A DNA stretch of 64,000 nt from Sipunculus nudus. Its lineage: Eukaryota; Annelida; Sipuncula; Golfingiida; Sipunculidae. The position numbers and the translations under genes are program-made. Below the pieces are notes generated by a model, which worked only from the letters and a program-made list of their open reading frames with translations, made no database searches and was not told the DNA's origin. Location of the stretch: positions 42,450,456 to 42,514,455 of the forward strand of contig CM049318.1 of assembly GCA_026874595.1 (NCBI GenBank), given 5' to 3'. The first letter of the stretch is position 1. Every line of letters starts with the position of its first letter. Of this stretch, positions 3,951 through 57,150 are shown in pieces.

Positions 3951-5012
3951 GACAGAGGGACATGTCCAAATCATATTGTTATGGATGGAGACGAGGGACA
4001 CTGCTAATTCATATTGTTAGGGATAAGGAGAGAGGGACATGTCCAAATCATGTTATTAGGGATAAGGACGGAGAGGGGCATGTCCAAATCATATTGTGAG
4101 GGATGGGGTCAGAGGGACATGTTCAAATCATACTGTTAGGAATAGGGACAGAGGGACATGTCCAAGTCATATTGAAAGGAATTGGGAAAGAGGGACACGT
4201 CCAAATTACATTGTTAGGGAGCGGGATAGAGGGACATGTTCAAATCATATTGTTAGGAATAGGAACAGAATGATAGGTCCAAGTCATATTGAAAGAAATC
4301 GGGAAAGAGGGATACGTCCAAATTACATTGTTGGGGATGGGGCAGAGGGACATGTCCAAATCATATTTTTAGAAATAGAGACAGAGGAACATGTTCAAGT
4401 CATATTTTTAGGAATAGAGACAGAGGGACATGTCCAAGTCATATTGCTAGAGATGGGGACAGAGTGACATGTCCGCATCATATTTTTTGGGGTGAGGACA
4501 GAGGGACATGTCCAAATCACATTGTTAGGGATGAGGACCGAGGGACATGTCCAAATCACATTGTTAGGGAACGAGGACAGAAGGACATTTCCAAATCATA
4601 TTGTGAGGGATGAGGACAGAGGGATATGTCCAGATCACATTGTTAGGGATGAGGACAGAGGAACATGTCCAAATCATATTGTGAGGGATGAGGACAGAGG
4701 GACACGTCCAAATTGCATTGTTAGGGATGAGGACAGAGGAACATGTCCACATCAAATTGTTAGGGATGAGGGCAGAGGGACATGTCCGAATCACATTGTT
4801 AGGGATCAGGACAGATGGACAGGTCCACATCAAATTGTTAGGGATTGGGACAGAGGGACATGTCCACATCAAATTGTTAGGGATGAGGACAGAGGGACAT
4901 GTCCAAATCACATTGTTTGGAATTGGTCAGAGGGACATGTCCACATCAGATTGAAAGGGATGAGGACAGAGGGACACGTCCAAATTACATTCTTAGGAAT
5001 TTGGATAGAGTA
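3951..5012. repeat. Minisatellite A, 39-bp unit, ~27 copies
   Basis: The unit runs roughly AGAGGGACATGTCC, then AAATCACATTGTTAGGGATGAGGAC (split here at the natural join). Because 39 is divisible by three, open frames appear on both strands (4096-4467 and 4492-5058 plus, 4564-4911 minus). Substitutions change residues freely and indels shift frames between neighbouring units, so these are by-products and not genes. Each typical unit holds the 10-bp palindrome GGACATGTCC. Units are more diverged at the left end (3951-4450) and more uniform at the right. Confidence 0.95.
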
Positions 5013-5216
5013 CTTATTGTTTCACACACTTTTTAAGGGACTGAAAAGCATACTTTAATTTTCAATATATAAATAATAGGATATGGCATGTTACAAATGG
5101 CATTATTGAATCGTTATAATTTTTTTACATAAACGTAGGTTGTTCAGTGCTCAAACCAAATGTAATTATGACAAATAATGTTGAAGTATATTTTGTTACA
5201 GGTGCTCTTTTTATTG
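5013..5216. other. Spacer between array A and LTR-like repeat
   Basis: AT-rich unique sequence. Nothing is recognisable. Confidence 0.4.
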
Positions 5217-5465
5217 TGTGACACGGGCGTACCTCCTGTTGTGGCACTCGTGTCTGGCCGCGTATTACATTTTATGTTTAATCCGTACTGGTTGAACTCT
5301 CATTGTCATGTTTAGCCTTGGGTTTTCACGCCTGGTCGTGCGTCACGTGATGAGCCTGGTATGTAGATATACACAGAGAATTCTTGAAACGCGTGTTTAC
5401 TGTGATTGCGCAAGATCTTATAGACTTTTCGAGGAGTGGAATATTCTCGGCTTGGGGTGTGAAGG

Positions 5466-5474
5466 TATATAAAG
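5466..5474 (+). promoter_or_regulatory. TATA box of the LTR-like repeat
   Basis: TATATAAAG is at the same relative place as TTATAAATAG in the 30.8-kb copy and a weaker GTATGTAAAG in the 54.2-kb copy (read on its minus strand). Conservation of the position across three diverged copies supports a real promoter in the parent element. Confidence 0.5.
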
Positions 5475-5807
5475 GGACTGTGTTTTAGAACGGATACGCA
5501 GAAGCGTATGTCAGATTCTAGGACCTTTCTCCGACTAATGCGGCAATAATAGACTTTCAAAGACTTTCTCCTGGATTTTATGCATTTGGACTTCAGTTTA
5601 CTTTCTGGGTTGTTGCAAGAACTTTCCACTGGACTGTCATTCTCCAAGAGATTACATTTAAAGGACTTATCGTTGTGATGGTCTTGGTATCCAGGTATTG
5701 TGCACATACATTATTTTCTCTGTGATTGTATTGATTTGTTGTGATACAGTTGTTTTACTGAATAATTGTATTGATTTAGTGTATTGTAATGTTAGGGTTG
5801 TTTTAGG

Positions 5808-5813
5808 AATAAA
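5808..5813 (+). terminator. Poly-A signal of the LTR-like repeat
   Basis: AATAAA is followed within 100 bp by a conserved block (TTTATTCATTCCCCTAG). It is the expected place for a polyadenylation signal in an LTR. Confidence 0.4.
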
Positions 5814-5971
5814 TTATAGTTATTTGTTAACAAAAAAACACTGACTTCTTTATTCATTCCCCTAGACATTTCACGCTGCCTAGTGTTACAAAATCTGATT
5901 CGTTTTTATCTCCATTACAAACTTTGTGTTCATCACGCATACGTGATCTGTTTATATTAGGTTCCGTAACA

Positions 5972-14437: not shown

Positions 14438-15447
14438 CTAAACCTCACATTTGCAGCTACATAGCCTGGTACAGGTAAGACTGAATCGGTAGCATTTGCA
14501 CCTTCCACGGCATTCCGACTTACATCCACACTTGGTCAGCTGTTGGCAACTATCTGCAATAGGTGGAAGTGTTGTCCAGCAGACGTAGTGTTGACTGACT
14601 CCATATGCAGCCTGCTTGATAGGCAGCACGCTTTGCATGCTGAAGTAGTGCTGACCTCTTTGGAGGAATAGCGTCGTAAGACCTCTGCTTCCGAGCAAAC
14701 ACGTCCAGCCTGGCATCATCAACGTGCAACTGTACTGAACCTGTCATACATTGTCACCACAAACTTCTCCAGAACCTCCAGATCATCATCATCGTCATCT
14801 ACAGTTGGTGGGTACTGGCTGAGCCTGGCAAACACACCAGAAGCCTCAACATACACGTCCCAGGTTTGCCATGCTGATTTCTTCCCTGTGCTGCGGAATC
14901 CTGACACAAGATCGCAACCAGTGAAGGCATGAAAGAAGAGTATTAATTTGCTTTTTTTCCGGTCCAATGGAGTGAAACAAGTCATGTACATGAAATCATC
15001 TCAGGTTTAACCCTTGTCCAAAGGCCATCCACAACTGCAGCAGACCAGTATCTTGAAGAAGAGGCAGAACACTGATTGCTATGACGAGGTCATCTGTGTC
15101 AGTGGCTTTCACCATTAATATCTTGCCCCCCCCCCCCTCTAGATGGATCCCTGGCGTGTACAAAGATGCATGTGTCTGCTTCCTCATGACTACATGGTGC
15201 AATCCATTCAAAGCTTAGCTTGTGGTTGCTGGCAACATCTTGTTCTTTGGTCACAATGACCAAGTTGGGTGTAGACATCTGTGCAATCTTGTCAGCCAGG
15301 AACCTGAACAGCTCAGTTTTGTTGTCACTGTCTCGCAGGAAGTTCCGCCAGTTTGAGGGGTTTTTGCCCTTGCTTGTCACTCTTTGTCTTACTCCACGTC
15401 CACGCTTTGACCTGGTTTCAACCTTGAGACTGGATGGCTGGTCTTCA
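14438..15447 (-). pseudogene. Broken copy of the invertebrate HAFTGCD / CXC-domain repetitive protein family
   Basis: Read on the minus strand, pieces of one protein family appear in order in different frames. First, NWRNFLRDSDNKTELFRFLA and then PCSHEEADTCIFVHA (15099-15447). After a frame shift at the C12 run (15126-15137) comes VKATDTDDLVIA and LLQLWMAFGQGLNLR. After a second shift near 14995 comes FFHAFTGCDLVSGF, GKKSAWQTWDVY and EVLEKFVVTMYDR. After a third near 14747 comes PPKRSALLQHAKRAAYQAG. After a fourth near 14590 comes WTTLPPIADSC and then a cysteine-rich CXC-like tail (CGCKSECRGRCKCYRF...CSCKC). I recognise this arrangement from many uncharacterised predicted proteins of molluscs and cnidarians. 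The acidic motifs EEAD, DTD and TGCD resemble the spacing of PIN/FEN1-like nucleases (inference). At least four frame disruptions make it a pseudogene. The N-terminal portion is missing, cut off at 15447 where repeat Y begins. Confidence 0.8.
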
Positions 15448-15661
15448 CAGAATGATAAAAAAGATCTTATTCTATCGGGGGAAAACAAAACGGTATTGCA
15501 CCGTTAGCATTTTGTATATGCGTTAAACTGCTTTATTTATAAAACAATTCCTTGGTTTCCGGCTTCCGACTTCCAAGTTGACATACACGACCCTGCCATG
15601 ACACCTTTAGTTTTGAACGAGAAGTACCGCTTCACGTGAATCGGTGCCACAGTGTTGAAAG
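15448..15661 (+). repeat. Dispersed repeat family Y, copy 2
   Basis: Near-identical over long stretches to 3118-3325. It starts at a TCTTCACAGAAT phrase shared with 3113 and continues without a break into the 75-bp minisatellite B. It truncates the coding remnant at 14438-15447, so insertion or recombination at this junction is likely. Confidence 0.85.
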
Positions 15662-16912
15662 ATGGTCTCACACTTCTCTTCTCGTACAACATGGTTTAAT
15701 GGTGAAGGCCTGAGTGTCATGTTGTTATGGCTAGTGGAACTCTCACACTTCTCTTCTCGTACAACATGGTTTAATGGTGAAGGCCTGGGTGTCATGTTGT
15801 TATGGCTAGTGGAACTCTCACACTTCTCTTCTCGTACAACATGGTTTAATGGTGAAGGCCTGAGTGTCATGTTGTTATGGCTAGTGGAACTCTCACACTT
15901 GTCTTCTCGTACAACATGGTTTAATGGTGAAGGCCTGGGTGTCATGTTGTTATGGCTAGTGGAACTCTCACACTTGTCTTCTCGTACAACATGGTTTAAT
16001 GGTGAAGGCCTGGGTGTCATGTTGTTATGGCTAGTGGAACTCTCACACTTCTCTTCTCGTACAACATGGTTTAATGCTGAAGGCCTGAGTGTCATGTTGT
16101 TATGGCTAGTGGAACTCTCACACTTCTCTTCTCGTACAACATGGTTTAATGGTGAAGGCCTGAGTGTCATGTTGTTATGGCTAGTGGAACTCTCACACTT
16201 CTCTTCTCGTACAACATGGTTTAATGGTGAAGGCCTGAGTGTCATGTTGTTATGGCTAGTGGAGCTCTCGCACTTCTCTTCTCGTACAATATGGTTTAAT
16301 GGTGAAGGCCTGAGTGTCATGTTGTTATGGCTAGTGGAACTCTCACACTTCTCTTCTCGTACAACATGGTTTAATGGTGAAGGCCTGGGTGTCATGTTGT
16401 TATGGCTATTGGAACTCTCACACTTCTCTTCTCGTACAACATGGTTTAATGGTGAAGGCCTGGGTGTCATGTTGTTATGGCTAGTGGAACTCTCACACTT
16501 CTCTTCTCGTACAACATGGTTTAATGGTGAAGGCCTGAGTGTCATGTTGTTATGGCTAGTGGAACTCTCACACTTCTCTTCTCGTACAACATGGTTTAAT
16601 GCTGAAGGCCTGAGTGTCATGTTGTTATGGCTAGTGGAACTCTCACACTTCTCTTCTCGTACAACATGGTTTAATGGTGAAGGCCTGAGTGTCATGTTGT
16701 TATGGCTAGTGGAGCTCTCACACTTCTCTTCTCGTACAACATGGTTTAATGGTGAAGGCCTGATTGTCATGTTGTTATGGCTAGTGGAGCTCTCACACTT
16801 CTCTTCTCGTACAACATGGTTTAATGGTGAAGGCCTGAGTGTCATGTTGTTATGGCTAGTGGAGCTCTCACACTCCTCTTCTCGTACAACATGGTTTAAT
16901 GGTGAAATCTAG
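15662..16912. repeat. Minisatellite B, 75-bp unit, ~16.7 copies
   Basis: Anchors TCTCACACTT recur every 75 bp (15666, 15741, 15816 and so on). Units differ by only a few substitutions (GAGTGTC/GGGTGTC, CTTCTC/CTTGTC, GGTGAA/GCTGAA). Since 75 is a multiple of three and the unit lacks stops in two frames, both strands are open for over 400 codons (15607-16845 minus, 15662-16912 plus). The repeat peptide on the plus strand has 25 residues (HFSSRTTWFNGEGL and SVMLLWLVELS). The substitutions mostly change amino acids on both strands, no start context or neighbouring exon is seen, and the unit is homologous to non-coding 3508-3537. I therefore do not call a gene. Confidence 0.97.
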
Positions 16913-19103: not shown

Positions 19104-22100
19104 CTAAAAACGCCTCTGTGACGGATGTATGAGCTTGTTTATCTTATAACGCCTCTCTGACGGATGTATGAGCTTGTTTATCTTATTAAGCCTCGCTGAC
19201 GAAAGTATGAGCTTGTTTATCTTATAAAGCCTCTCTGACGGATGTATGAGCTTGTTTATCTTATAAAGCCTCTCTGACGGATGTATGAGCTTGTTTATCT
19301 TATAAAGCCTCTCTGACGGATGTATGAGCTTGTTTATCTTATAAAGCCTCTCTGACGGATGTATGAGCTTGTTCATTTAATAAAGCCTCTCTGACGGATG
19401 TATGAGCTTGTTTATCTTATAAAGCCTCTCTGACGGATGTATGAGCTTGTTTATCTTATAAAGCCTCTCTGACGGATGTATGAGCTTGTTCATTTAATAA
19501 AGCCTCTCTGACGGATGTATGAGCTTGTTTATCTTATAAAGCCTCTCTGACGGATGTATGAGCTTGTTTATCATATAAAGCCTCTCTGACGGATGTATGA
19601 GCTTGTTTATCTTATAAAGCCTCTCTGACGGGTGTATGAGCTTGTTTATCTTATAACGCCTCCGTGACAGATGTATGAGCTTGTTTATCTTATAAAGCCT
19701 CTGTGACGGATGTATGAGCTTGTTTGTCTTAAAATCCTCTGTGACGGGTCTTTGAGCTTGTTTATCTTATAACGCCTCTCTGACGGATGTATGAGCTTGT
19801 TTATCTTATAAAGCCTCTGTGACGTATGTATGAGCTTGTTTATCTTATAAAGCCTCTCTGACGGGTATATGAGCTTGTTTATCTTATAAAGCCTCTGTGA
19901 CGAATGTATCAGCTTGTTTATCTTATAAAGCCTCTCTGACGGATGTATGAGCTTGTTTATCTTATAAAGCCTCTCTGACGGGTGTATGAGCTTGTTTATC
20001 TTATAACGCCTCCGTGACAGATGTATGAGCTTGTTTATCTTATAAAGCCTCTGTGACGGATGTATGAGCTTGTTTGTCTTAAAATCCTCTGTGACGGGTG
20101 TTTGAGCTTGTTTATCTTATAACGCCTCTCTGACGGATGTATGAGCTTGTTTATCTTATAAAGCCTCTGTGACGTATGTATGAGCTTGTTTATCTTATAA
20201 AGCCTCTCTGACGGGTATATGAGCTTGTTTATCTTATAAAGCCTCTGTGACGAATGTATCAGCTTGTTTATCTTATAAAGCCTCTGTGACGGATGTATGA
20301 GCTTGTTTATCTTAAAACGCCTTTCTGACCTATGTATGAGCTTGTTTATCTTATAAAGCCTCTCTGACGGATGTATGAGCTTGTTAATCTTATAAAGCCT
20401 CTCTGACGGGTATATGAGCTTGTTTATCTTATAAAGCCTCTGTGACGAATGTATGAGCTTGTTTATCTTATAAAGCCTCTGTGACGGATGTATGAGCTTG
20501 TTTATCTTAAAACGCCTTTCTGACCTATGTATGAGCTTGTTTATCTTATAAAGCCTCTCTGACGGATGTATGAGCTTGTTTATCTTATAAAGCCTCTCTG
20601 ACGGATGTATGAGCTTGTTTATCTTATAAAGCCTCTGTGACGGATGTATGAGCTTGTTTGTCTTAAAAATCCTCTGTGACGGGTGTTTGAGCTTGTTTAT
20701 CTTATAAAGCCTCTCTGACGGGTGTATGAGCTTGTTTATCTTATAAAGCCTCTGTGACGGATGTATGAGCTTGTTTATCTTATAAAGCCTCTCTGACGGG
20801 TGTATGAGCTTGTTTATCTTATAACGCCTCTCTGACGGATGTATGAGCTTGTTTATCTTATAAAGCCTCTGTGACGGATGTATGAGCTTGTTTATCTTAT
20901 AACGCCTCTCTGACGGGTATATGAGCTTGTTTATCTTATAAAGCCTCTGTGACGAATGTATGAGCTTGTTTATCTTATAAAGCCTCTGTGACGGATGTAT
21001 GAGCTTGTTTATCTTAAAACGCCTTTCTGACCTATGTATGAGCTTGTTTATCTTATAAAGCCTCTGTGACGGATGTATGAGGTTGTTTATCTTATAAAGC
21101 CTCTGTGACGGATGTATGAGGTTGTTTATCTTATAACGCCTCTCTGACGGATGTATGAGCTTGTTTATCTTATAACGCCTCTCTGACGGATGTATGAGCT
21201 TGTTTATCTTATAAAGCCTCTCTGACGGATGTATGAGCTTGTTTATCTTATAAAGCCTCTCTGACGGGTATATGAGCTTGTTTATCTTATAACGCCTCTG
21301 TGACGGATGTATGAGCTTGTTTATCTTATAAAGCCTCTGTGACGGATGTATGAGCTTGTTTATCTAATAAAGCGTCTCTGACGGATGTATGAGCTTGTTT
21401 ATCTTATAAAGCGTCTCTGACGGATGTATGAGCTTGTTTATCTTATAAAGCCTCTCTGACGGATGTATGAGCTTGTTTATCTTATAAAGCCTCTCTGACG
21501 GATGTATGAGCTTGTTTATCTTATAAAGCCTCTGTGACGGATGTATGAGCTTGTTTATCTTATAAAGCCTCTGTGACGGATGTATGAGCTTGTTTATCTT
21601 ATAAAGCCTCTCTGACGGATGTATGAGCTTGTTTATCTTATTAAGCCTCTCTGACGGATGTATGAGCTTGTTTATCTTATAAAGCCTCTCTGACGGATGT
21701 ATGAGCTTGTTTATCTTATAAAGCCTCTCTGACGGATGTATGAGCTTGTTTATCTTATAAAGCCTCTCTGACGGATGTATGAGCTTTTTTATCTTATAAA
21801 GCCTCTCTGACGGATGTATGAGCTTGTTTATTTTATAAAGCCTCTCTGACGGATGTATGAGCTTGTTTATCTTATAAAGCCTCTCTGACGGATGTATGAG
21901 CTTGTTTATCTTATAAAGCCTCTGTGACGGATGTATGAGCTTGTTTATCTTATATAGCCTCTCTGACGGATGTATGAGCTTGTTTATCTTATATAGCCTC
22001 TCTGACGGATGTATGAGCTTGTTTATCTTATAAAGCCTCTCTAACGGATGTATGAGCTTGCTTATCTTATAAAGCCTTTCTGACGGATGTATGAGCTTGT

Positions 22101-22739
22101 TTATCTTATAAAGCCTTTCTGACGGATGTATGAGCTTGTTTATCTTATAAAGCCTCTCTGACGTATGTATGAGCTTGTTTATCTTATAAAGCCTCTGTGA
22201 CAGATGTATGAGCTTGTTTATCTTATAAAGCCTCTGTGACGGATGTATGAGCTTGTTTATCTTATAATGCCTCTCTGACGGATGTTTGAGCTTGTTTGTC
22301 TTTTAAAGCCTCTCGGACGGGTGTTTTAGCTTGTTTATCTTATAAAGCCTCTCTGACGGATGTATGAGCTTGTTTATCTTATAAAGCCTTTCGGACGGAT
22401 GTATGAGCTTTTTTATCTTATAAAACCTCTCTGACGGATGTATGAGCTTGTTTATCTTATAAAGCCTCTCTGACGGATGTATGAGCTTGTTCATCTTATA
22501 AAGCCTCTCTGACGGATGTATGAGCTTGTTTATCTTATAAAGCCTCTCAGACGGATGTATGAGCTTGTTTATCTTTTAAAGCCCCTCTGACGGATGTATG
22601 AGCTTGTTTATCTTTTAAAGCCTCTCTGACGGATGTATGAGCTTGTTTATCTTATAAAGCCTCTCTGATGGATGTATGAGCTTGTTTATCTTATAAAGCC
22701 TCTCTGACGGATGTATGAGCTTGTTTATCTTATAAAGCA
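19104..22739. repeat. Minisatellite C, 39-bp unit, ~93 copies
   Basis: The unit is GCCTCTCTGACGGATGTATG followed by AGCTTGTTTATCTTATAAA. Most units differ by 0-4 bases. Variant units (TAACGCC, GTCTTAAAAT, GACCTATG) occur in repeated order: 19631-19980 is reproduced at 19981-20290, a 350-bp block (nine units, one with a 1-bp deletion). Minus-strand frames of 60-90 codons (for example 19104-19376) are by-products of the 39-bp period. The array ends cleanly in unique DNA on both sides. Confidence 0.97.
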
Positions 22740-28892: not shown

Positions 28893-30064
28893 CGTTCATT
28901 TATTATGAGTATGATTCCTGATACAGACATATTACAGAGTCACGATGATACATTTATTATGAGTATGATTCCTGATACAGGCATATTACAGAGTCACGAT
29001 GATACATTTATTATGAGTCTGATTCCTGGTACAGACATATTACAGAGTCACGATGATACACTTATTATGATTATGGTTTCTGATGAAGGCATATTACAGA
29101 GTCACGATGATACATTTATTATGAGTATGATTCCTGATACAGGCATAATACAGAGTCACGATGATACATACATTATAAGTATGATTCCTGGTACAGGCAT
29201 ATTACAGAGTCACGATGATACATTTATTATGAGTATGATTCCTGATACAGACATATTACAGAGTCACGATGATACACTTATTATGATTATGGTTTCTGAT
29301 AAAGGCATATTACAGAGTCACGATGATACATTTATTTTGAGTATGATTCCTGATACAGGCATATTACAGAGTCACGATGATACATTTATTATGAGTATGA
29401 TTCCTGATACAGGCATATTACAGAGTCACGATGATACATACATTATAAGTATGATTCCTGGTACAGGCATATTACAGAGTCACGATGATACACTTATTAT
29501 GAGTATGATTCCTGATACAGGCATATTACAGAGTCACGATGATACATACATTATGAGTATGATTCCTGGGACAGGCATATTACAGAGTCACGATGATACA
29601 CTTATTATGAGTATGATTCCTGATACAGGCATATTACAGAGTCACGATGATACATTTATTATGAGTATGATTCCTGATAAAGACATATTACAGAGTCACG
29701 ATGATACACTTATTATGATTATGGTTTGTGATAAAGGCATATTACAGAGTCATGATGATACATTTGTCATGAGTATGATTCCTGATAAAGGCATATTACA
29801 GAGTCATGATGATACATTTTTTATGTGTATGATTCCTCATACAGGCATATTACAGAGTCATTGTGATACATTTGTTATGAGTATGATTCCTGATAAAGGC
29901 ATATTACAGAGTCATGATGATACATTTTTTATGAGTATGATTCCTCATACAGGCATATTACAGAGTCATTGTGATACATTTATTACGAGTATGATTCCTG
30001 ATAAAGGCATATTACAGAGTCACGATGATACATTTATTATGCGTATGATTCCTGATACAGGCAC
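28893..30064 (+). repeat. Minisatellite F, 54-bp unit, ~22 copies
   Basis: The unit reads GAGTATGATTCCTGATACAG, GCATATTACAGAGTCACGAT, GATACATTTATTAT. It gives an 18-residue repeat (SMIPDTGILQSHDDTFIM) inside an open frame at 28785-30200 (471 codons). Differences between units are mostly amino-acid changing (D/G, G/D, K/E, H/C) with few silent ones, which argues against selection on a protein. The flanks look non-coding. Higher-order order is visible: the pair of units with ACTTATTATGATTATGGTTT recurs at 29060, 29276 and 29708. Confidence 0.95.
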
Positions 30065-30814: not shown

Positions 30815-31351
30815 AGGGATCCAGAATGGAAAATTCTGGGCTTGAGGTGAAAAAGTTATAAATAGGGGTGTGTTAAGAGGGGAGAAGGAGATAAAAATTC
30901 CAGCGGAAACGGAAGAGTGTGAGTCAGTTTGTGGACCTTACCGATAACTGCAGTGGTTTCAGATATTTAACGGACTTAATACAGATTTAATACGGACTGT
31001 CTCCAGTTTGTCTTTGGATTATTACTACTTACTTGGATTATTGGTTTTAAACTACTCGTGTTGAGCTGTGACAGTGGTGGTATCCAGATATCAAAGCTAG
31101 GATCCGGACACTCTGGTACTATTCATTTTATTTGTTATGCCTTGTAATTGTATTGATTAAGTGTATTGTTATGTTTGGATTGTTTTAAGAAAAAAATATA
31201 ATTATTTGTTAACAAAAAACCACTGACTTCTTTATTCATTCCCCTAGATATTTCACGCTGCCTAATGTTACGGAATCTGATCTTTTTATCTCCATATCAA
31301 AATGTGTGCTGATCACGATTACGTGATATGTTGTTATTAGGTTCCGTAACA
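30815..31351 (+). mobile_element. LTR-like dispersed repeat, copy 2 (5' part lost or diverged)
   Basis: Matches copy 1 from AATGGAAAATTCTGGGCTTG onward to the shared end ATTAGGTTCCGTAACA. It keeps a TATA-like TTATAAATAG (about 30858) and the TTTATTCATTCCCCTAG block. The expected TGTGACAC start is not found, so this copy is truncated or too diverged at its 5' end. Confidence 0.65.
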
Positions 31352-31857
31352 TATGAACTTCTAACAACGTGTAATATGAGCGATAAAAAGATCCTTGTAA
31401 ACTCGGCATATTGATTAACCGCTCCGCATGTCTGTTGAATTTCTGGTTGCATTAATATAAGCATGACTCGCACGGGTTACTGGACGAAGCCAACTTGTAC
31501 GTGATACAGGATATGACTTGTTACCATGGAGACGTAGTTTCAGTTTGGGTTTTGAGTTCACATGTATTATCCAGTATTAATTCATCATTCGTAATATAAA
31601 GATTATTGGCTGTTTACCACAAAATGAATGCAAGATGATGGAAGACAACTGCGATGCATTCCTCGATATTGCTTGTATCACGAATCAAGTAGGCTTACAA
31701 GATCATTTATCAGTGCCTACTAAGTCGGGTTGTCACGGCTACTTGATACCATAAAGATGTATCTACACTTTAGTCTGTGAGCTCACATGTATCATTTTGT
31801 GTTAATTCATAATTTGTAGCTTAATGTTCAGACAACCGACGGTTTACCATGATGTCA
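31352..31857. other. Unique spacer
   Basis: Imperfect internal resemblance between 31485-31620 and 31735-31860 (CGGGTT, TTGTACG/TGTCACGG, GAGTTCACATGTAT / GAGCTCACATGTAT, AATTCAT) suggests an old tandem duplication of about 245 bp. No gene is seen. Confidence 0.4.
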
Positions 31858-34048
31858 TGGCTTCCCGGGCTGGCGGTACATTTGAGTACTCTGTTCACGG
31901 ATTCCTGGGCTGGCAGTACGTTTGAGTCCTGTGTTTACGGCTACCTGGGCTGGCGGTACGTTTCAATACTGTGTTAACGGCTACCGGGGCTGGTGACATG
32001 TTTGAGTCCTGTGTTCACGGCTACACGGGCTGGCGGTACATTTGAGTCCTGTGTTCACGGGTAACCGAGCTGGCGGGACGTTTGAGTCCTGTGTTCACGG
32101 CTTCCCTGACTGGCAGTACGTTTGAGTCCTGTGTTTTCGGCTACACAGGCTGGCGCTTCGTTTGAGTCCTGTGTTCAAAGCTACCCGGACTGGCGAGACG
32201 TTTGAGTTCTGTATTCACGGCTACCCGGGATGGCGGTACGTTTGAGTCCTGTGTTCACGGCTACCCGGGCTGGCGGGACGTTTGAGTCCTGTGTAAACGG
32301 CTACCCTACTGGCGATACGTTTGAGTCCTGCGGACTGGCGGTTCTTTTGAGTACTGTGTTCATGGCTACCCTGGCTGGTGATACTTTTAAGTCTGGTGAT
32401 TACAGCTATCCGGGCTGGCAGTACATTTGAGTCCTGTGTTCACGGCTACCCGGGCTTGTGATATATTGGAGTCCGGTGTTTACAGCTACCCAGGCTGGTG
32501 CTACGTTTAATTCCTGTATTCACAGCTACCCGGCTGGCGGTTCTTCTGAGTACTGTGTTCACGGCTACCCTGGCTGGTGATACATTTGAGTCCTGTGTTC
32601 ACAAATACCCAGGTTGGCGGTACATTTAAGTCCTGTGTTACGGCTACCCGGGCTGGTGGTACGTTTGAGTCCTGTGTTCACGGCAACCCTTGCTGGCAGT
32701 ACGTTGGAGTCCTGTGTTCACAGCTACCCGGGCTGGCGCTACGTTTGAGTCCTGTGTTCACGGCTACCCGGGCTGCTGGTACATTTGAGTCCTGTGTTCA
32801 TGGCTACCCTGGCTGGTGATACATTTGAGTCCTGTGTTTACAGCTACCCGGGCTGGTGGTTCTTTTGAGTCCTGTAATGGCTACCCTAGTGGCGATACGT
32901 TTGAATCCTGCGAGCTGGCGGTTCTTTTGAGTACTATGTTCACGGCTACCCTGGCTGGTGATACTTTTGAGTCTGGTGATTACAGCTATCCGGGCTGGCA
33001 GTACATTTGAGTCCTGTGTTCACGGCTACCCGGGCTGGTGATATATTGGAGTCTGGTGTTTACGGCTACTCGGGCTGGCGGATCTTTTGAGTACTGTGTT
33101 CACGGCTACCCTGGCTGGTGATACGTTTGAGTCCTGTGTTCACAACTACCCGGGTTGGCGGTACAATTAAGTCCTGTGTTACGGCTACCCGGGCTGGTGG
33201 TACGTTTGAGTCCTGTGTTCACGGCTACCCTGGCTGGCAGTACGTTTAAGTCCTGTGTTCACAGCTACCCGGGCTGGCGCTATGTTTAAGTCCTGTGTTC
33301 ACGGCTACCCGGGCTGCTGGTACATTTGAGTCCTGTGTTCACAGCTACCCGGGCTCGCGGTTCTTTTGAGTCCTGTGTTCACGGCTACCCGGGCTGGTGA
33401 TACATTTGAGTCCAGCGATTACACCTATCCGGACTGGCAGTTCATTTGAGTCCTGTGTTCACAGCTACCTGGGTTGGCGGTACATTTGAGTCCTGTGTTA
33501 CGGCTACCCGGGATGGTGGTACGTTTGAGTCCTGTGTTTACGGCTACCCTGGCTGGCAGTACGTTTAAGTCCTGTGTTCACAGCTACCCGGGCTGCTGGT
33601 ACATTTGGGTCCTGTGTTCATGGCTACCCTGGCTGCTGGTACATTTGAGTCCTGTGTTCACAGCTACCCGGTTGGCGGTTCTTTTGAGTCCTGTGTTCAC
33701 GGCTACCCTGGCTGGTGATACATTTGAGTTCGGCGATTACAGCTATCCGGACTGGCAGTACATTTGAGTCCTGTGTTACGGCTACCCGGGCTGGTGATAC
33801 ATTTGAGTCCTGTGTTTACGGCTATCCTGGATGGCCTACGTTTGAGTTCTGTGTTCACGGTAACCCAGGCTGGCGGTACGTTTGAGTCCTGTTTTCAAGG
33901 CTACCAGGGCTGGCGGGACGTTTGAGTCCTGTGTTCACGGCTACCCGGCTGGCGGGACGTTTGAGTCCTGTGTACATTGCTTCTCGTGCTGGCGGGACGT
34001 TTGAGTCTTGTGTTCATGGCTACCCGGGCTGGTGATACGTTTGACTCG
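31858..34048. repeat. Minisatellite G, ~40-bp unit, ~55 copies
   Basis: The unit is TTTGAGTCCTGTGTTCACGG followed by CTACCCGGGCTGGCGGTACG. Units vary in length by 1-2 bases and by substitutions. A multi-unit block starting at the CGGTTCTTTTGAGTACTGTG variant (~32338) is repeated about 583 bp later (~32921), and a similar series recurs from ~33660, indicating higher-order amplification. Frames of 64-97 codons are incidental. Confidence 0.95.
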
Positions 34049-43211: not shown

Positions 43212-46005
43212 GACTCATTACTTGAGTGAAGTCACTGTTATATCATGTAGGTTTTTGTTTATTACTTTAGTGAAGCCACTGTTATATCATCTAGGTTTCT
43301 TGATTATTACTTTAGTGAAGACACTGTTATATCATCTAGGTTTCTTGATTATTACTTTAGTGAAGCCACTAATATATCATCTAGGTTTCTTGTTTATTAC
43401 TTTAGTGAAGCCACTAATATATCATCTAGGTTTTTGTTTATTACTTGAGTGAAGCCACTGTTATATCATCTAGGTTTCTTGATTATTACTTTAGTGAAGC
43501 CACTAATATATCATCTAGGTTTCTTGTTTATTACTTTAGTGAAGCCACTAATATATCATCTAGGTTTTTGTTTATTACTTGAGTGAAGCCACTGTTATAT
43601 CATCTAGGTTTCTTGATTATTACTTTAGTGAAGCCACTGTTATATCATCTAGGTTTCTTGTTTATTACTTGAGTGAAGCCACTGTTATATCACCTAGGTA
43701 TCTTGATTATTATTTTAGTGAAGCCACTGTTATATCATCTAGGTTTCTTGATTATTACTTGAGTGAAGCCACTGATATATCATCTAGGTTTCTTGATTAT
43801 TACTTTAGTGAAGCCACTGTTATATCATCTAGGTTTCTTGTTTTTTACTTTAGTGAAGCCACTGTTATATCATCTAGGTTTCTTGATTATTACTTTAGTG
43901 AAGCCACTGTTATATCATCTAGGTTTCTTGATTATTACTTTAGTGAAGCCACTGTTATATCATCTAGGTTTCTTGTTTATTACTTGAGTGAAGCCACTGT
44001 TATATCATCTAGGTTTCTTGATTATTACTTTAGTGAAGCCACTGTTATATCATCTAGGTTTCTTGTTTATTACTTGAGTGAAGCCACTGTTATATCATCT
44101 AGGTTTCTTGATTATTACTTTAGTGAAGCCACTAATATATCATCTAGGTTTTTGTTTATTACTTTAATGAAGCCACTGTTATATCACCTAGGTTTCTTGA
44201 TTATTACTTTAGTGAAGCCACTAATATATCATCTAGGTTTCTTGTTTATTACTTTAGTGAAGCCACTAATATATCATCTAGGGTTTTGTTTATTACTTGA
44301 GTGAAGCCACTGTTATTTCATCTAGGTTTCTTGATTATTACTTTAGTGAAGCCACTGTTATATCATCTAGGTTTCTTGATTATTACTTTAGTGAAGCCAC
44401 TAATATATCATCTAGGTTTCTTGTTTATTACTTTAGTGAAGCCACTAATATATCATCTAGGTTTTTGTTTATTACTTGAGTGAAGCCACTGTTATATCAT
44501 CTAGGTTTCTTGATTATTACTTTAGTGAAGCCACTAATATATCATCTAGGTTTCTTGTTTATTACTTTAGTGAAGCCACTGTTATATCATCTAGGTTTCT
44601 TGTTTATTACTTGAGTGAAGCCACTGTTATATCATCTAGGTTTCTTGATTATTACTTTAGTGAAGCCACTAATATATCATCTAGGTTTTTGTTTATTACT
44701 TTAATGAAGCCACTGTTATATCACCTAGGTTTCTTGATTATTACTTTAGTGAAGCCACTAATATATCATCTAGGTTTCTTGTTTATTACTTTAGTGAAGC
44801 CACTAATATATCATCTAGGGTTTTGTTTATTACTTGAGTGAAGCCACTGTTATATCATCTAGGTTTCTTGATTATTACTTTAGTGAAGCCACTGTTATAT
44901 CATCTAGGTTTCTTGTTTATTACTTGAGTGAAGCCACTGTTATATCATCTAGGTTTCTTTATTATTACTTTAGTGAAGCCACTGTTATATCATCTAGGTT
45001 TCTTGATTATTACTTTAGTGAAGCCACTGTTATATCATCTAGGTTTCTTGATTATTACTTTAGTGAAGCCACTGTTATATCATCTAGGTTTCTTGTTTAT
45101 TACTTGAGTGAAGCCACTGTTATATCATCTAGGTTTCTTGATTATTACTTTAGTGAAGCCACTGTTATATCATCTAGGTTTCTTGTTTATTACTTGAGTG
45201 AAGCCTCTGTTATATCATCTAGGTTTCTTGATTATTACTTTAGTGAAGCCACTGTTATATCATCTAGGTTTCTTGTTTATTACTTTAGTGAAGCCAATGT
45301 TATATCATCTAGGTTTCTTGATTATTACTTTGGTGAAGCCACTGTTATATCATCTAGGTTTCTTGATTATTACTTTGGTGAAGCCACTGTTATATCATCT
45401 AGGTTTCTTGATTATTACTTTGGTGAAGCCACTGTTATATCATCTAGGTTTCTTGATTATTACTTTGGTGAAGCCACTGTTATATCATCTATGTTTCTTG
45501 ATTATTACTTTAGTGAAGCCACTGTTATATCATCTAGGTTTCTTGATTATTACTTGAGTGAAGCCACTGTTATATCATCTAGGTTTCTTGATTATTACTT
45601 TAGTGAAGTCACTGTTATATCATCTAGGTTTCTTGATTATTACTTTAGTGAAGACACTGTTATATCATCTAGGTTTCTTGATTATTACTTTAGTGAAGCC
45701 ACTAATATATCATCTAGGTTTCTTGTTTATTACTTTAGTGAAGCCACTAATATATCATCTAGGTTTTTGTTTATTACTTTAGTGAAGCCACTGTTATATC
45801 ATCTAGGTTTCTTGATTATTACTTGAGTGAAGCCACTGTTATATCATCTAGGTTTCTTGATTATTACTTTAGTGAAGTCACTGTTATATCATCTAGGTTT
45901 TTTTATAAATACTTTAGTGAAGTCACTGTTATATCATCTAGGTTTCTTGATTATTACTTTAGTGAAGTCACTGTTGTATCACCTAGGTTTCTTGTTTATA
46001 CCACT
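43212..46005. repeat. Minisatellite J, 45-bp unit, ~62 copies
   Basis: The unit is CACTGTTATATCATCTAGGT, TTCTTGATTATTACTTTAGT, GAAGC. It yields a 15-residue plus-strand repeat (TVISSRFLDYYFSEA) in frames up to 330 codons (44834-45826). Units with a 1-bp deletion (GGTTTTTGTTTATTAC) break the frame repeatedly and variants (GTT/AAT, GAT/GTT, TTT/TTG) are amino-acid changing, so no gene is called. A block of about 12 units starting at ~44148 is repeated ~538 bp later at ~44686. Four consecutive TTTGGTGAAGCC units (45330-45475) show recent local amplification. Confidence 0.97.
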
Positions 46006-52034: not shown

Positions 52035-52669
52035 ATCTATTTAAGTATCAGTACTTACAGTTGTTGACCATCCATTGTATTTAAATATCAGTATTTCCAG
52101 TTGTAGATCTTCCATTATATTTAAATATCAGTACCTCCAGCTGTAGACCATCCATTGTATTTTAGATTAAATGCGTCAAGCTGTAGACCATCCATTGTAT
52201 TTTTATATCAGTACTACCAGCTGTAGGCCATCCATTGTATTCAAAATTAAGTGCTTTCAGCTGTAGACCATCCATTGTATTTAAATATCATTGCGTCCAG
52301 CTGTAGACCATCCATTGTATTTAAATACCAGTACTTCCAGCTGTAGACCATCCGTTGTATTTTTATATCAGAACTTCCAGCTGTAGACCAAGCATTGTAT
52401 TTAAAATTAAGTGCGTCCAGCTGTAGACCATCCATTGTATTTAAATATCATTGCGTCTAGCTGTAGACCATCCATTGTATTTAAATATCAGTACCTCCAG
52501 CTGTAGACCATTCATTGTATTTAAATTAAGTACGTCAAGCTGTAGACCATCCATTTTATTTAAATCAAGTGCGTCAAGCTGTAGACCATCCATTGTATTT
52601 AAATTAAGTGCGTCAAGCTGTAGACCATCCATTGTATTTAAATATCAGTACTTCCACCTGTAGACCATC
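52035..52669. repeat. Minisatellite L, 40-bp unit, left block (~16 copies)
   Basis: The unit is CTGTAGACCATCCATTGTAT followed by TTAAATATCAGTACTTCCAG. The last unit stops mid-unit at CTGTAGACCATC (52658-52669) where a transposable element begins. The missing remainder of the unit (CATTGTATTT) resumes at 56491. Confidence 0.96.
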
Positions 52670-52900
52670 TGTTACGGCCCATAATGTAATAACCGGCCCA
52701 TAATGTAATAACGGCCCATATTGTAATAAAAACGACCCATAATGTAATAATCATACCCTGCCCATATTGTAATAAAACTGACCCATACTGTAATAAAAAA
52801 CGGCCCATATTGTTATAAATACGACTCATATTGTTATAATCATACCCTACCCATATTGTAATAAAAAAGGGAAGTGGGAAAAACGGCCCATATTGTAATT
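52670..52900 (+). repeat. Left terminal inverted repeat with subterminal CCCATATTGTAATAA words
   Basis: About ten CCCATAWTGTWATAA words in one orientation, separated by ACGGC, AACGA and TCATACCCTG linkers. An oppositely oriented set (TTACAATATGGGTCGTTATT) also occurs at 53160-53275, so an internal duplication or a smaller derivative element may be present. Confidence 0.88.
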
Positions 52901-53277
52901 ATAATATGTTTAAGCTCAAGAATGAATCCCAAATCTAACAGGAGATATGTCGTTTGAGAATACCTTCTGAAATGACAGCCTTTTTAGTTCCTCATTGGTA
53001 TATGGGATGCAGTCATAATGGAAATCCAGTCAACATTTATGCTGTCTACGTATATTTAATCATAATCTTTTAAACTGCATTTTTTTTTACAATTTTGGCA
53101 TTTTTGCCCATTTAAGCCCCCACCATGCTGATTCAGTAAAGGTCGTTTTTTACAACAAAATAGACAATTTCTACTACAATATTGACCATTGTTACAATAT
53201 GGGTCGTTATTACAATATGAGTCGTAATATGATACGAGTCATAATATGATAACCGTCCCAAATTGTAAAAATGGTCA

Positions 53278-53287
53278 ATATATATAT

Positions 53288-53345
<58 letters not shown>
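53278..53345. repeat. (AT)n microsatellite inside the TIR element
   Basis: About 68 bases of AT dinucleotides with two short AAAT interruptions. Confidence 0.95.
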
Positions 53346-53347
<2 letters not shown>

Positions 53348-53596
53348 TATACTAACCAAAGAAAACCCCTAGCAACAGGCGAATGGGATTGGGTGAGGCA
53401 TATTGTTTAGATTCATTTTGTAAATGGCGACATTTTTTATTCATTTAAGGCAACGGCATTTACATAATGCTATGAATAGTAATTAGCAAAAATAGTAAAT
53501 AGCAATATACCATATGACTGACAAAGTAACTAGGGATCAAACTTTACTCCTTCCCTTTTCCCACGCATTTACTATTACCGATCATTTGCGGGTAAA

Positions 53597-53613
53597 GGGG
53601 GGGGGGGGGGGGG
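53597..53613. repeat. Poly-G homopolymer
   Basis: About 17 consecutive G followed by a G-rich stretch to 53690 (GGGGTGGAGGTGGGGCAGGG), which has G-quadruplex potential. Confidence 0.9.
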
Positions 53614-54183
53614 TAGGTGTTTGACCGTGAGGGGTGGAGGTGGGGCAGGGGTAGCGGGTTAGGGTGGAGAAGGCTGAGGGAGGCTTCCCTGCGATCGCTC
53701 GTCGATTGCAAACATCTGGTTTTTCATGGATTGTACAAACAGTTGAAATAATTACTGGGAGGCTCTCTCCATGGCTCAGATGGTGTCGTTCGGTAGTCTT
53801 TATAGGTCTTTATAGTTGTTCGTCGATTCTTTAGGTAGACACCTTGTTCGATTAAAAAAAAAATGTTTTTTATACTACTGAGTTAAACCTCTGAAGGATG
53901 GTTCCGGTATAAGGTATATATATTTTTTGTGGATGTAATCGCTTTTTGTGGATATATCTATCTCGGTTTGGAGCACACGCTAAGTGTAATTATATAATAT
54001 CCTGGTGTCAGGTAACTACCGCACCTGCGGGTCCTGGATGTGTAATCGTCCCCATTACTGAGTCATAACATTGAGGAACTGGCCAAATTTTGCATTCGTT
54101 TGTGGTACAAACGTGATACATGGCTGTAGGGCACAGCCTTCTTATTATGCAGAGCGCTCACCCTGGATGGGGGCCGACCATGA

Positions 54184-54938
54184 CAAATTTTGTAATGGAG
54201 ATGAAAAAAAAATCAGATTCTGTAACACTAGGCAGCGTGTAATGTCTAGGGGAATGAATAAAGAAGTCAGTGTTTTTTTGTTAACAAATAACCACAATTT
54301 ATTCTTAAAACAACCCAAACATTACAATACACTAAATCAATAAATTATACAGTAAAACAGCGGTATAACAACAAATCAATACAATCACACAGTAAAATAC
54401 ACAAAGTGCACAGTACCTGGATACCACCACCATCACAACGATAAGTTCTTTAAATGTATACTCTCGAGGAACGACAGTCCAGTGTAAAGCTCTTGTAACA
54501 ATCCAGAAAGTAAACTGAAGTCCAAATGCATAAAATCCAGGAGAAAGGCTGAAGAAAATCTATAATTGCCGCACTCGTCGGATAAGGTCCCAGAAACTGA
54601 CACACGCTTCTGCGTCCGCTGGAAATCTTCTCTGCTCTGCTGTTCTCCCTCGGCTCTAAAACACAGCCCCTTTACATACTCTTCACCCCAAGCCGAGAAT
54701 TTTCCACTTCTCGAACAGTCTTAAAGATCTTACACAACACAGTAACCGCGCGTTACAGAAATCATCTAGAAGAACACCGCTGTGTGTCTCTACATACCAG
54801 GGTCCACACGTGACTCACGACAAGGCGAGAAAGCCCAAGGCTAGCATGACAACGAGAGTTCAACCAGTACAAATTAAACTGCGAATGTAACAAACGGCCC
54901 GGCGAGGGTGTCACAACACGAGTTACGCCCGTGTCACA
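54184..54938 (-). mobile_element. LTR-like dispersed repeat, copy 3 (reversed, nested)
   Basis: The reverse complement begins TGTGACACGGGCGTAAC and follows copy 1 through GTACTGGTTGAACTCTC, CTCGGCTTGGGGTG, CTCCTGGATTTTATGCATTT, TTATCGTTGTGATGG and TTTATTCATTCCCCTAG to TCTCCATTACAAA. Beyond that point (below 54184) it differs from copies 1 and 2, so the shared 3' end is missing. It lies inside the TIR element. Confidence 0.75.
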
Positions 54939-55084
54939 CTAAAAGATTACTGTAACAATATGGAGCATCGTGTTATTACTCGGAGTTTCACGCCGTTGCC
55001 GGTGTCGGCATCCGGGCGATCTTTTAACCTGCTCTACCTTAGCTGTATCGAGCTCTATACTGCAAGCACTGGACCTACTTAGGA

Positions 55085-55085
<1 letters not shown>

Positions 55086-55180
<95 letters not shown>
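55086..55180. repeat. (AT)n(GT)n compound microsatellite
   Basis: About 49 bases of AT followed by 46 of GT. Alternating purine-pyrimidine DNA of this length can adopt Z-DNA. Confidence 0.97.
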
Positions 55181-55183
<3 letters not shown>

Positions 55184-55189
55184 TTCACA

Positions 55190-55665
55190 ATTTTCGTGAT
55201 TGATTTTCATTTTTCATATTTCTTTTTATTAATTAGCAATTAGATTTTATTTTTTTAACTGCAGTTTATTACTTTCAAATTCATTAGTTGAGGATGAGGA
55301 TATTTATGAACAGCTGCAGAACTACTGCAGAGTACCAGGCCTTGGTTGGGGTCGACCGTGAACACTCTCATGGCTCCTCTGGTGATACCGGTACTCGAAC
55401 CCGCGATATATGCACTAGGAGTCATGTGTGCTGTCGAGACCATGGACCCCCGGTAAAATGCAAAGTTTACCAAGATAATATTTTGCAAGTTATTAACGTA
55501 AATGCGCCTATACGCCTTTAATTTTAACATGTTGGACCGATTGAAATTTTGTATTCTAATTTTGAAGAAATATAAATATTAAATATTGAACCTCTCTACA
55601 GTTTGACTACATAACGCAAAGACATAAGGGAACAGTTTTTCAGGAACAGTAAATCCTCATTGTTT
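55190..55665 (+). repeat. Family X, diverged copy with tRNA-like B box
   Basis: Shares TTTATTACTTTC with AATTCAT (copy 1 at ~2120), GGTCGACCGTGAA with CTCCTC (copy 1 at ~2325), GTAAAATGCAAAG and AGAAATATAAATATTAAA. On the minus strand GGTTCGAGTACC (about 55391-55402) resembles an RNA polymerase III B box, so a SINE-like origin for this part of family X is possible. Confidence 0.6.
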
Positions 55666-56270
55666 GTGAAAATTGCCTCCAAATGTCCTCTTTACATTGC
55701 ATATTAAAAAAATATCCAAATAATGGAGGGAGGGGTATGGGAGTGGGATGCCCCCTCCCGTACCCTCCCCTTGAACCTGTTACTAACCTTAATGAAACCA
55801 TGGTTCACAATTGAATAAACAAAATCATATTATCATACACTAAAAGATAACGTATTAGAACAATAATAAAAATAATTATAATTATAATATATTTATATAT
55901 ACATATATACATATACACGTATATATAACGGTTTTCATAGTACCCATATATGCATCTTAGCGCCCCCCCCCCCCCTTTTCGAATTTCTGGATCCGCTACT
56001 AATTATGGCCCCCTACCCTCCCTCAATCCTGGCTTTATATATATATAAATTAACTTTTTCAAATACTTTATCACCCTATAACACTGATTCAACAAAAGGA
56101 TAACCATGAATCATGGCCGTATTTCGCTCATATTAGCTTGGTCACCGTTTTAAACAGATAGGCATTATGTCATCCAGTGGTTTTTCATACTTGTATGTTC
56201 ACTTACACATTCGTGTCATGAGAAGTCAATATATGAATTGTCTAAGTTAATTTGCATGGAATTTGAATTA
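55666..56270. other. AT-rich interior of the TIR element with C/G-rich inverted patch
   Basis: GGGAGGGGTATGGGAG (~55730) pairs with CCCCTCCCGTACCCTCCCC (~55751) as an imperfect hairpin. A C14 run lies at 55962-55975. TTTCTGGATCCGCTACT (~55984) resembles the right end of the 62.8-kb MITE. Confidence 0.5.
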
Positions 56271-56274
56271 TAAA

Positions 56275-56485
56275 ATTATTGGCCTTCTTACCCACCTGCG
56301 ATTTTATTACAATATAGGCCGTTTTACCCACTTGCGATTTTATTACAATATGGGCAAGGTGTGGTTATTACAATATTGGCCGATTTTTATTACATTATGG
56401 GCCATTATTACATTATGGGTCGTTTTTATTACAATATGGGCCGTTATAACATTATGGGTCGGTTATTACATTACGGGTCGTAACA
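56275..56485 (-). repeat. Right terminal inverted repeat
   Basis: Reverse complement of the left terminus, with TTATTACAATATGGGC and TTATTACATTATGGGTCG words. It ends CGGGTCGTAACA at 56485 next to the CCATC duplicate. Confidence 0.9.
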
Positions 56486-57150
56486 CCATCCATTGTATTT
56501 AAATTAAGTGCGTCAAGCTGTAGACCATCCATTGTATTTAAATCAAGTGCGTCAAGCTGTAGACCATCCATTGTATTTAAATATCAGTACCTCCAGCTGT
56601 AGACCATCCATTCTACTTAAATATCAGTACCTCCAGCTGTAGACCATCCATTGTATTTAAATATCAGTACCTCCAGCTGTAGACCATCCATTGTATTTAA
56701 ATATCAGTACTTCCAGCTGTAGACCATCCATTCTACTAAAATATCAGTACCTCCAGCTGTTGACCATCCATTGTATTTAAATATCAGTATCTCCAGCTGT
56801 AGACCATCCTTTGTATTTAAATATCAGTACTTCCAGCTGTAGACCATCCATTTTATTTGAATATCAGCACTTCCAGCTGTAGACCATCCATTGTATTTTA
56901 ATATCAGTGCTTCTAGCTGTAAACCATCCATCTATTTAAAAATCAGTGCTTCCATCTGTAGACCATTCATTGTATTTAAATATAAGTGCATCTAGTTGTA
57001 TCCATTCCACTGTATTTTTATACCAGTGCTTCCGGCTGTTCACCATGTATTGTATTTTATATCAGTTCTTCAAGCTGTAGACCACCTATTGTTTTTAATA
57101 TCAGTGCTTCCAGCTGTAGAGCCTCTACTGTATTTTAATATCCTCTAGCA
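56486..57150. repeat. Minisatellite L, right block (~16 copies)
   Basis: Same 40-bp unit as 52035-52669. Units become more diverged towards the right edge (56930-57150: CATCTATTTAAAAATCAG, TGTATTTTTATACCAG, AGCCTCTACTG). The left edge of the other block is likewise more diverged, as expected if the two blocks were once one array whose middle was most homogeneous. Confidence 0.96.

Follow-up and report, generated by a model that had tools for sequence, protein, structure and literature searches.

Introduction

Terminal sequences of the form TGTNR are reported for Gypsy long terminal repeats (LTRs), Ginger1 and Ginger2, with CCGG or CCGT given as the target of Ginger1 and RTATAY as that of Ginger2 (PMC2836005). 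The target-site duplications are listed as 4 bp for Ginger1, 4 or 5 bp for Ginger2, 6 bp for Polinton and usually 6 bp for IS3EU (PMC10045372). ProtoRAG, Transib and RAG have 5-bp, GC-biased duplications (PMC8289069), and protostome RAG-like (RAGL) elements also have 5-bp duplications (PMC7204232). We analyzed a stretch of 64,000 bp from the Sipunculus nudus genome (GCA_026874595.1, contig CM049318.1; C13:42450456-42514455 of a 1.43 Gb assembly in 153 contigs), referred to as the window. It contains a 3,816-bp element with terminal inverted repeats (TIRs) inserted in a minisatellite. The element is probably a non-autonomous member of a high-copy, recently active family that is mobilized by cut-and-paste DNA transposition.

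The insertion and its empty site

The element lies at 52670..56485 (+) and has the ends TGTTACG...CGTAACA. It interrupts a 40-bp minisatellite, the two parts of which run over 52038..52669 on the left and about 56485-57142 on the right (no strand assigned). A 5-bp target-site duplication, CCATC, flanks the element at 52665..52669 (+) and 56486..56490 (+). The left junction reads ...GACCATC / TGTTACGGCCC and the right junction ...GGGTCGTAACA / CCATCCATTG. Joining the flanks with a single CCATC produces an unbroken, normal array unit. The empty site is thus rebuilt exactly, as had been claimed in the original prediction, which was made from the letters of this locus and described a TIR element in a pre-existing minisatellite.

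The array also has 39-bp variant units of the AAATYAAGTRCGTCAAG type. To the left of the junction these start at 52501, 52540 and 52579 and are followed by one 40-bp unit. The unit split at the junction is itself of the variant type, and the variant appears again at 56518, to the right. This is the pattern expected of one array split by the element. Because variant units occur on both sides, it is very hard to believe that there was no insertion and that array blocks from different loci were misjoined around an unrelated repeat. Nothing was found in favor of such a misassembly; the array phase is preserved across a 5-bp duplication and other copies in the genome show an equal structure.

Structure of the element

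The left TIR arm (82 nt; 52670..52751, +) is 95% complementary to the right arm (82 nt; 56404..56485, -). The termini had been placed correctly in the original prediction, but the inverted similarity of about 200 bp that it described is ungapped only in the outer 82 bp; with gaps it extends to about 230 bp. The right end of the window element differs from the terminal 24-mer at 1 of 24 positions. The terminal repeats are inverted and not direct, unlike those of an LTR retrotransposon.

Both ends carry arrays of a 17-bp word, GGCCCATAATGTAATAA. With up to 4 mismatches allowed, the word occurs 22 times in the element, whereas 100 dinucleotide shuffles gave 0.3 on average and never more than 2. 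Nineteen of the 22 are in the element ends in mirror orientation, ten facing inward in the left array (52670..52901, +) and nine inverted in the right array (56268..56485, -). The remaining three are near element positions 536-586.

The window element has no stop-to-stop frame of 110 aa or longer, in agreement with the earlier view that it lacks a recognizable transposase. Twenty further stretches of about 10 kb were read, making 21 copies with the window copy. These 20 were picked by left-end similarity to the window element, a choice biased toward non-autonomous relatives. No transposase was recognized in the copies read, as judged by frame length and by eye, and by Pfam on five peptides. 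Rfam and tRNA searches of the window gave no match. By eye, a long frame in one stretch (L047) resembles a long interspersed nuclear element, a piece of another (L045) resembles a Harbinger transposase and the long frames of a third (L034) resemble flanking host genes.

A dispersed family with 5-bp duplications

The terminal 24-mer, with at most one mismatch, has 613 matches in the genome (301 forward and 312 reverse); a reversed-pattern control gave 0. Searching with the left 281 bp of the element gave 44 matches (best 40 of 904 candidates scored), and with the right 306 bp 40 matches, each at least 93% (best 40 of 905 candidates scored). Among the matches listed (100 of the 613), 70 make 35 inward-facing pairs with a median length of 1,652 bp: 25 are 1-2 kb, nine are 2-6 kb and one is 21.9 kb. 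The common form in this set is shorter than the window copy. Other loci thus carry the paired termini, as expected from the original prediction. A search of viral contigs with one terminal and one subterminal pattern gave 0 exact matches. No description matching the family was found in the literature, covered as titles and the beginnings of abstracts, which cannot be searched by sequence.

Target-site duplications were scored in the copies having both ends. Three of the copies read at length (L034, L045, L047) were dropped since no right end lies inside the stretch, and L042, which is one of two C3 copies with an identical left flank (L013, L014), was counted once. An exact 5-bp duplication is present in 15 of the 18 two-ended copies and absent in L032, L037 and L049. 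Right-end candidates were ranked by duplication and then by terminus match, a procedure that could favor duplications; all 17 of the 17 chosen right ends differ from the terminal 16-mer at no more than one position. Ten further pairs, the 22-kb pair included, have the exact duplication in eight cases, the failures being pairs on C2 (5.6 kb) and C1 (4.55 kb). The total is 23 exact 5-bp duplications in 28 two-ended copies. When the flanks of different copies were cross-paired as a control, 0 of 306 combinations matched.

A second, independent empty-site case is seen in the copy L039, located 8-12 kb upstream of the window inside another copy of an LTR-like repeat (see below). When joined, its flanks align within that repeat without a gap where they meet. 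The family is mobile, and its inverted termini, fixed-length duplication and many dispersed copies are those of a class II element.

Target-site preference

The 23 duplications are 65% GC, as compared to 41% in the flanks of the first 18 copies. The sites were symmetrized around the middle base of the duplication to give 46 half-sites, and expectations were derived from the composition of the window. G is found at +/-1 in 23 half-sites (expected 8.8), C at +/-2 in 27 (8.8), Y at +/-3 in 38 (23) and T at +/-5 in 33 (14.2). The positions were chosen post hoc and the p-values, 5e-6 to 3e-9, are descriptive only. The family prefers a palindromic target of about 5'-ANR[GCNGC]YNT-3', where the bracket marks the duplication, and individual sites are seldom palindromic on their own. 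CCGG, CCGT or ACGG occurs within one of the 23 duplications and TATA within none.

Nested repeat, order of events and age

An LTR-like repeat of 779 bp is nested in the window element at 54183..54961 (no strand assigned), with one end short by about 45 bp relative to other copies. In the fuller copies TGTTACGRAACC forms the start, about 45 bp beyond the window fragment, and CCTGTAACA the end. Its relatives in the window, at 5190-5927 and in two pieces at 30820-31307, are in the opposite orientation to it. The first of these belongs to a solo-LTR-like copy of 778 bp without an exact duplication (5194-5971, -); the two-piece copy is also on the minus strand. The LTR-like repeat that is split by the L039 element has GTAT, 4 bp, on both sides and measures 790 bp excluding the TIR element. 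We infer that the nested repeat is a Gypsy-type solo LTR.

The copy L032, on C10 with different flanks, has this LTR-like insert as well, in an identical internal position (97.9% identity over 942 columns). Over 3,768 columns L032 is 96.6% identical to the window element and it is the closest relative among the 20 compared. It has no exact duplication and may be rearranged, though at a separate site. The insert is absent from the eight copies that were aligned across this place. The window copy and L032 also share roughly 100 bp past the LTR-like end that the same eight copies lack, so the insert exceeds the LTR-like repeat alone. Because an element elsewhere holds the same insert in the same place, the LTR-like fragment most likely entered an ancestral TIR copy, and that element jumped later into the existing array. 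The original prediction had the LTR-like copy probably arriving third, unless the TIR element had captured it; L032 contradicts that order and fits the proviso.

Three copies at different sites, L039, L040 and L043, align over about 3,686 columns with 99.5-99.8% identity (35-54 gap columns), which points to recent movement. The window copy looks older than these, since its TIR arms differ by about 5% and even L032 is no closer than stated above.

The mobilizing enzyme

In the proposed mechanism a transposase encoded elsewhere in the genome would bind the TGTTACG termini and probably also the subterminal words. It would cut the element out and paste it into a GC-rich, loosely palindromic site opened with a 5-bp stagger, where gap repair would generate the 5-bp duplication. 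A copy already holding the solo-LTR-like fragment would have landed in this way in one unit of the 40-bp minisatellite.

TGTNR fits 38 of the 39 ends read, and both ends begin with TG in all 18 of the 18 two-ended copies. Such ends together with 5-bp duplications suggest an integrase-type enzyme, and on balance we favor, with modest confidence, a DDE transposase of the Ginger2/TDD-like kind. By the published values the family resembles Ginger2/TDD in its TGTNR ends, in a TIR of tens of bp and in the 5-bp duplication (4 or 5 bp in Ginger2); the subterminal word arrays are a feature of the present family. The likeness to Ginger1 lies in the TGTNR ends and in the 82-bp arms of the window element, which are inside the reported Ginger1 TIR range of 40-270 bp. 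IS3EU/GingerRoot and Polinton differ by their reported 6-bp duplications, as compared to 5 bp in 23 of 28 copies. With Gypsy LTRs the family shares TG...CA ends, the first 8 bases being common to the TIR and one end of the solo-LTR-like repeat at L039, whereas its terminal repeats are inverted and its duplications are 5 bp and not 4 bp as in that one LTR-like copy.

Several observations weigh against the proposed explanation. Five of the 28 two-ended copies are without an exact duplication, and the target positions were selected after the sites had been seen. The GC-rich target, about ANRGCNGCYNT, differs from the RTATAY reported for Ginger2, and the 5-bp duplications differ from the 4 bp at CCGG or CCGT reported for Ginger1, with no integrase gene found in the copies read. 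An autonomous copy with the same TIRs and a transposase, which had been proposed as a check on the original prediction, was not found among the copies read and the leads that were followed; the enzyme class is for this reason assigned from the termini and the duplication length. In addition, the genome has 34 match rows for RAG1 (PF12940), with open frames of up to 997 aa.

These RAG1 matches raise the alternative that a Transib/RAGL transposase mobilizes the family. The 5-bp duplications of 65% GC are as in ProtoRAG, Transib and RAG (PMC8289069), and the length is also that of protostome RAGL (PMC7204232). The termini, however, are TGTTACG and not CAC, and only 7-8 of 17 positions agree with the published consensus of protostome RAGL, CACTWMCAAACKTYKBB. 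No RAG1-like frame is near a TIR on C2 and C3 among the matches listed: nine of the ten RAG1 rows there were measured, the tenth adjoining a measured row, and their distances to the nearest TIR run from 45 kb to 8.3 Mb, a weak test given that the TIRs used are 100 of 613 and all mismatch-free. With mismatched termini and no co-location in the part tested, the RAG1-like genes were rejected as the probable enzyme source, and we consider this origin improbable. We give about the same low weight to the idea that the family is moved by an integrase encoded by a host LTR retrotransposon, with the TIR mimicking an LTR end. At L039 one end of the LTR-like repeat agrees with the TIR in 17 of 24 positions, including all of the first 8, and the window copy at 5971 (-) agrees in 16 of 24. 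This resemblance is suggestive only, as the comparison was made post hoc and, among the 8,583 window 24-mers starting with TG that were tested, three others also reach at least 17, two of these within the element. The other LTR-like end matches at 11 of 24, the duplication at the L039 repeat is 4 bp (GTAT) as opposed to 5 bp in the TIR family, and the window copy at 5194-5971 lacks an exact duplication altogether.

We place the family among the non-autonomous TIR transposons, more likely than not integrase-type, with the superfamily unclear, as originally judged: Ginger1, Ginger2, IS3EU, Polinton and Transib/RAG-like elements each miss at least one tested point when set against the published values. 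It is conceivable, though rather unlikely, that the family represents an undescribed lineage of integrase-type DNA transposons combining TGTTACG ends, arrays of binding words, 5-bp duplications, an ANRGCNGCYNT target and possibly an end recognition shared with a host LTR retrotransposon.

Rejected transposase candidates

An Ulp1-like open reading frame in the copy L049 was rejected as the family transposase. Its Pfam match to Peptidase_C48 (E 0.13) is below the cut-off, and it recurs genome-wide in 44 rows with frames of up to 675 aa. The DNA around it is bounded separately and has inverted arrays of its own, features that recur at sites without TIR-family flanks. Eight of the 12 rows on C1-C4 were measured, the other four being two second pieces and two rows past the end of the C4 listing, and their distances to the nearest TIR among the matches listed range from 96 kb to 6.8 Mb.

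On C4, a TIR pair 21,949 bp long and flanked by an exact GGCCC duplication was rejected as an autonomous element since its internal pieces are retroelement-like. Seven 200-bp samples of it yielded an integrase C-terminal piece (MLVIN_C, E 1.1e-8, over the cut-off), a reverse transcriptase/RNase H piece (E 1.8e-5, under the cut-off) and one sample that to the eye resembles gag but has no Pfam match. A 1,385-aa open frame on C9, which reads as a Gypsy pol, includes a part 98% identical to the integrase piece. With about 20.5 kb of its length lying outside these samples, we interpret the copy as a TIR element that holds nested retroelement DNA.

Other mobile and repeated DNA

The insert in L049 (L049:1125-3230, between the TIRs) appears as a second mobile family, with inverted end arrays of short words and the Ulp1-like frame (elsewhere up to 675 aa). 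Relatives are at C10:6075721-6080264, C9:14263484-14268088 and C7:38151577-38156155.

The RAG1-like matches include C2:3873420-3875147, C11:72623253-72624983, C10:30493693-30495573 and C7:53207119-53208999. Those on C2, C11 and C10 are stop-free, with open frames of 997, 838 and 958 aa, respectively. The one on C7 has one stop and a score nearly equal to that on C10. It is possible that this genome holds RAG-like transposons that are intact or were active recently.

One internal segment of the TIR family matches at three places on C5 (80393833, 80395703 and 80397553), about 1.85 kb apart, and these are possibly tandem copies. The last place (L021), the sole one inspected, has one TIR.

Minisatellite arrays, about fifteen in number and with repeat units of roughly 23-280 bp, make up about 18.7 kb of the window when added by hand, or 29% of its length. 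Examples are at 3951-4997, 15666-16906, 19112-22738, 28897-30063, 31855-34044 and 43217-45999. At about 14438-15503 (-) there are frames whose tail is rich in cysteine (CKCYRFSLTCTRLCSCKCE); these and a frame next to them look like protein pieces of another mobile element.

Significance

The window locus is a clean and readable nesting of an LTR-like fragment in a TIR element in an array, and target choice can be measured on the family's hundreds of insertions. Should the enzyme prove to be a new integrase-type transposase that prefers a GC-rich palindromic target, the few DNA transposons related to retroviral integrases would gain a further lineage. If end recognition is shared with a host LTR retrotransposon, the family would connect integrase-type DNA transposons with LTR elements in the present day.

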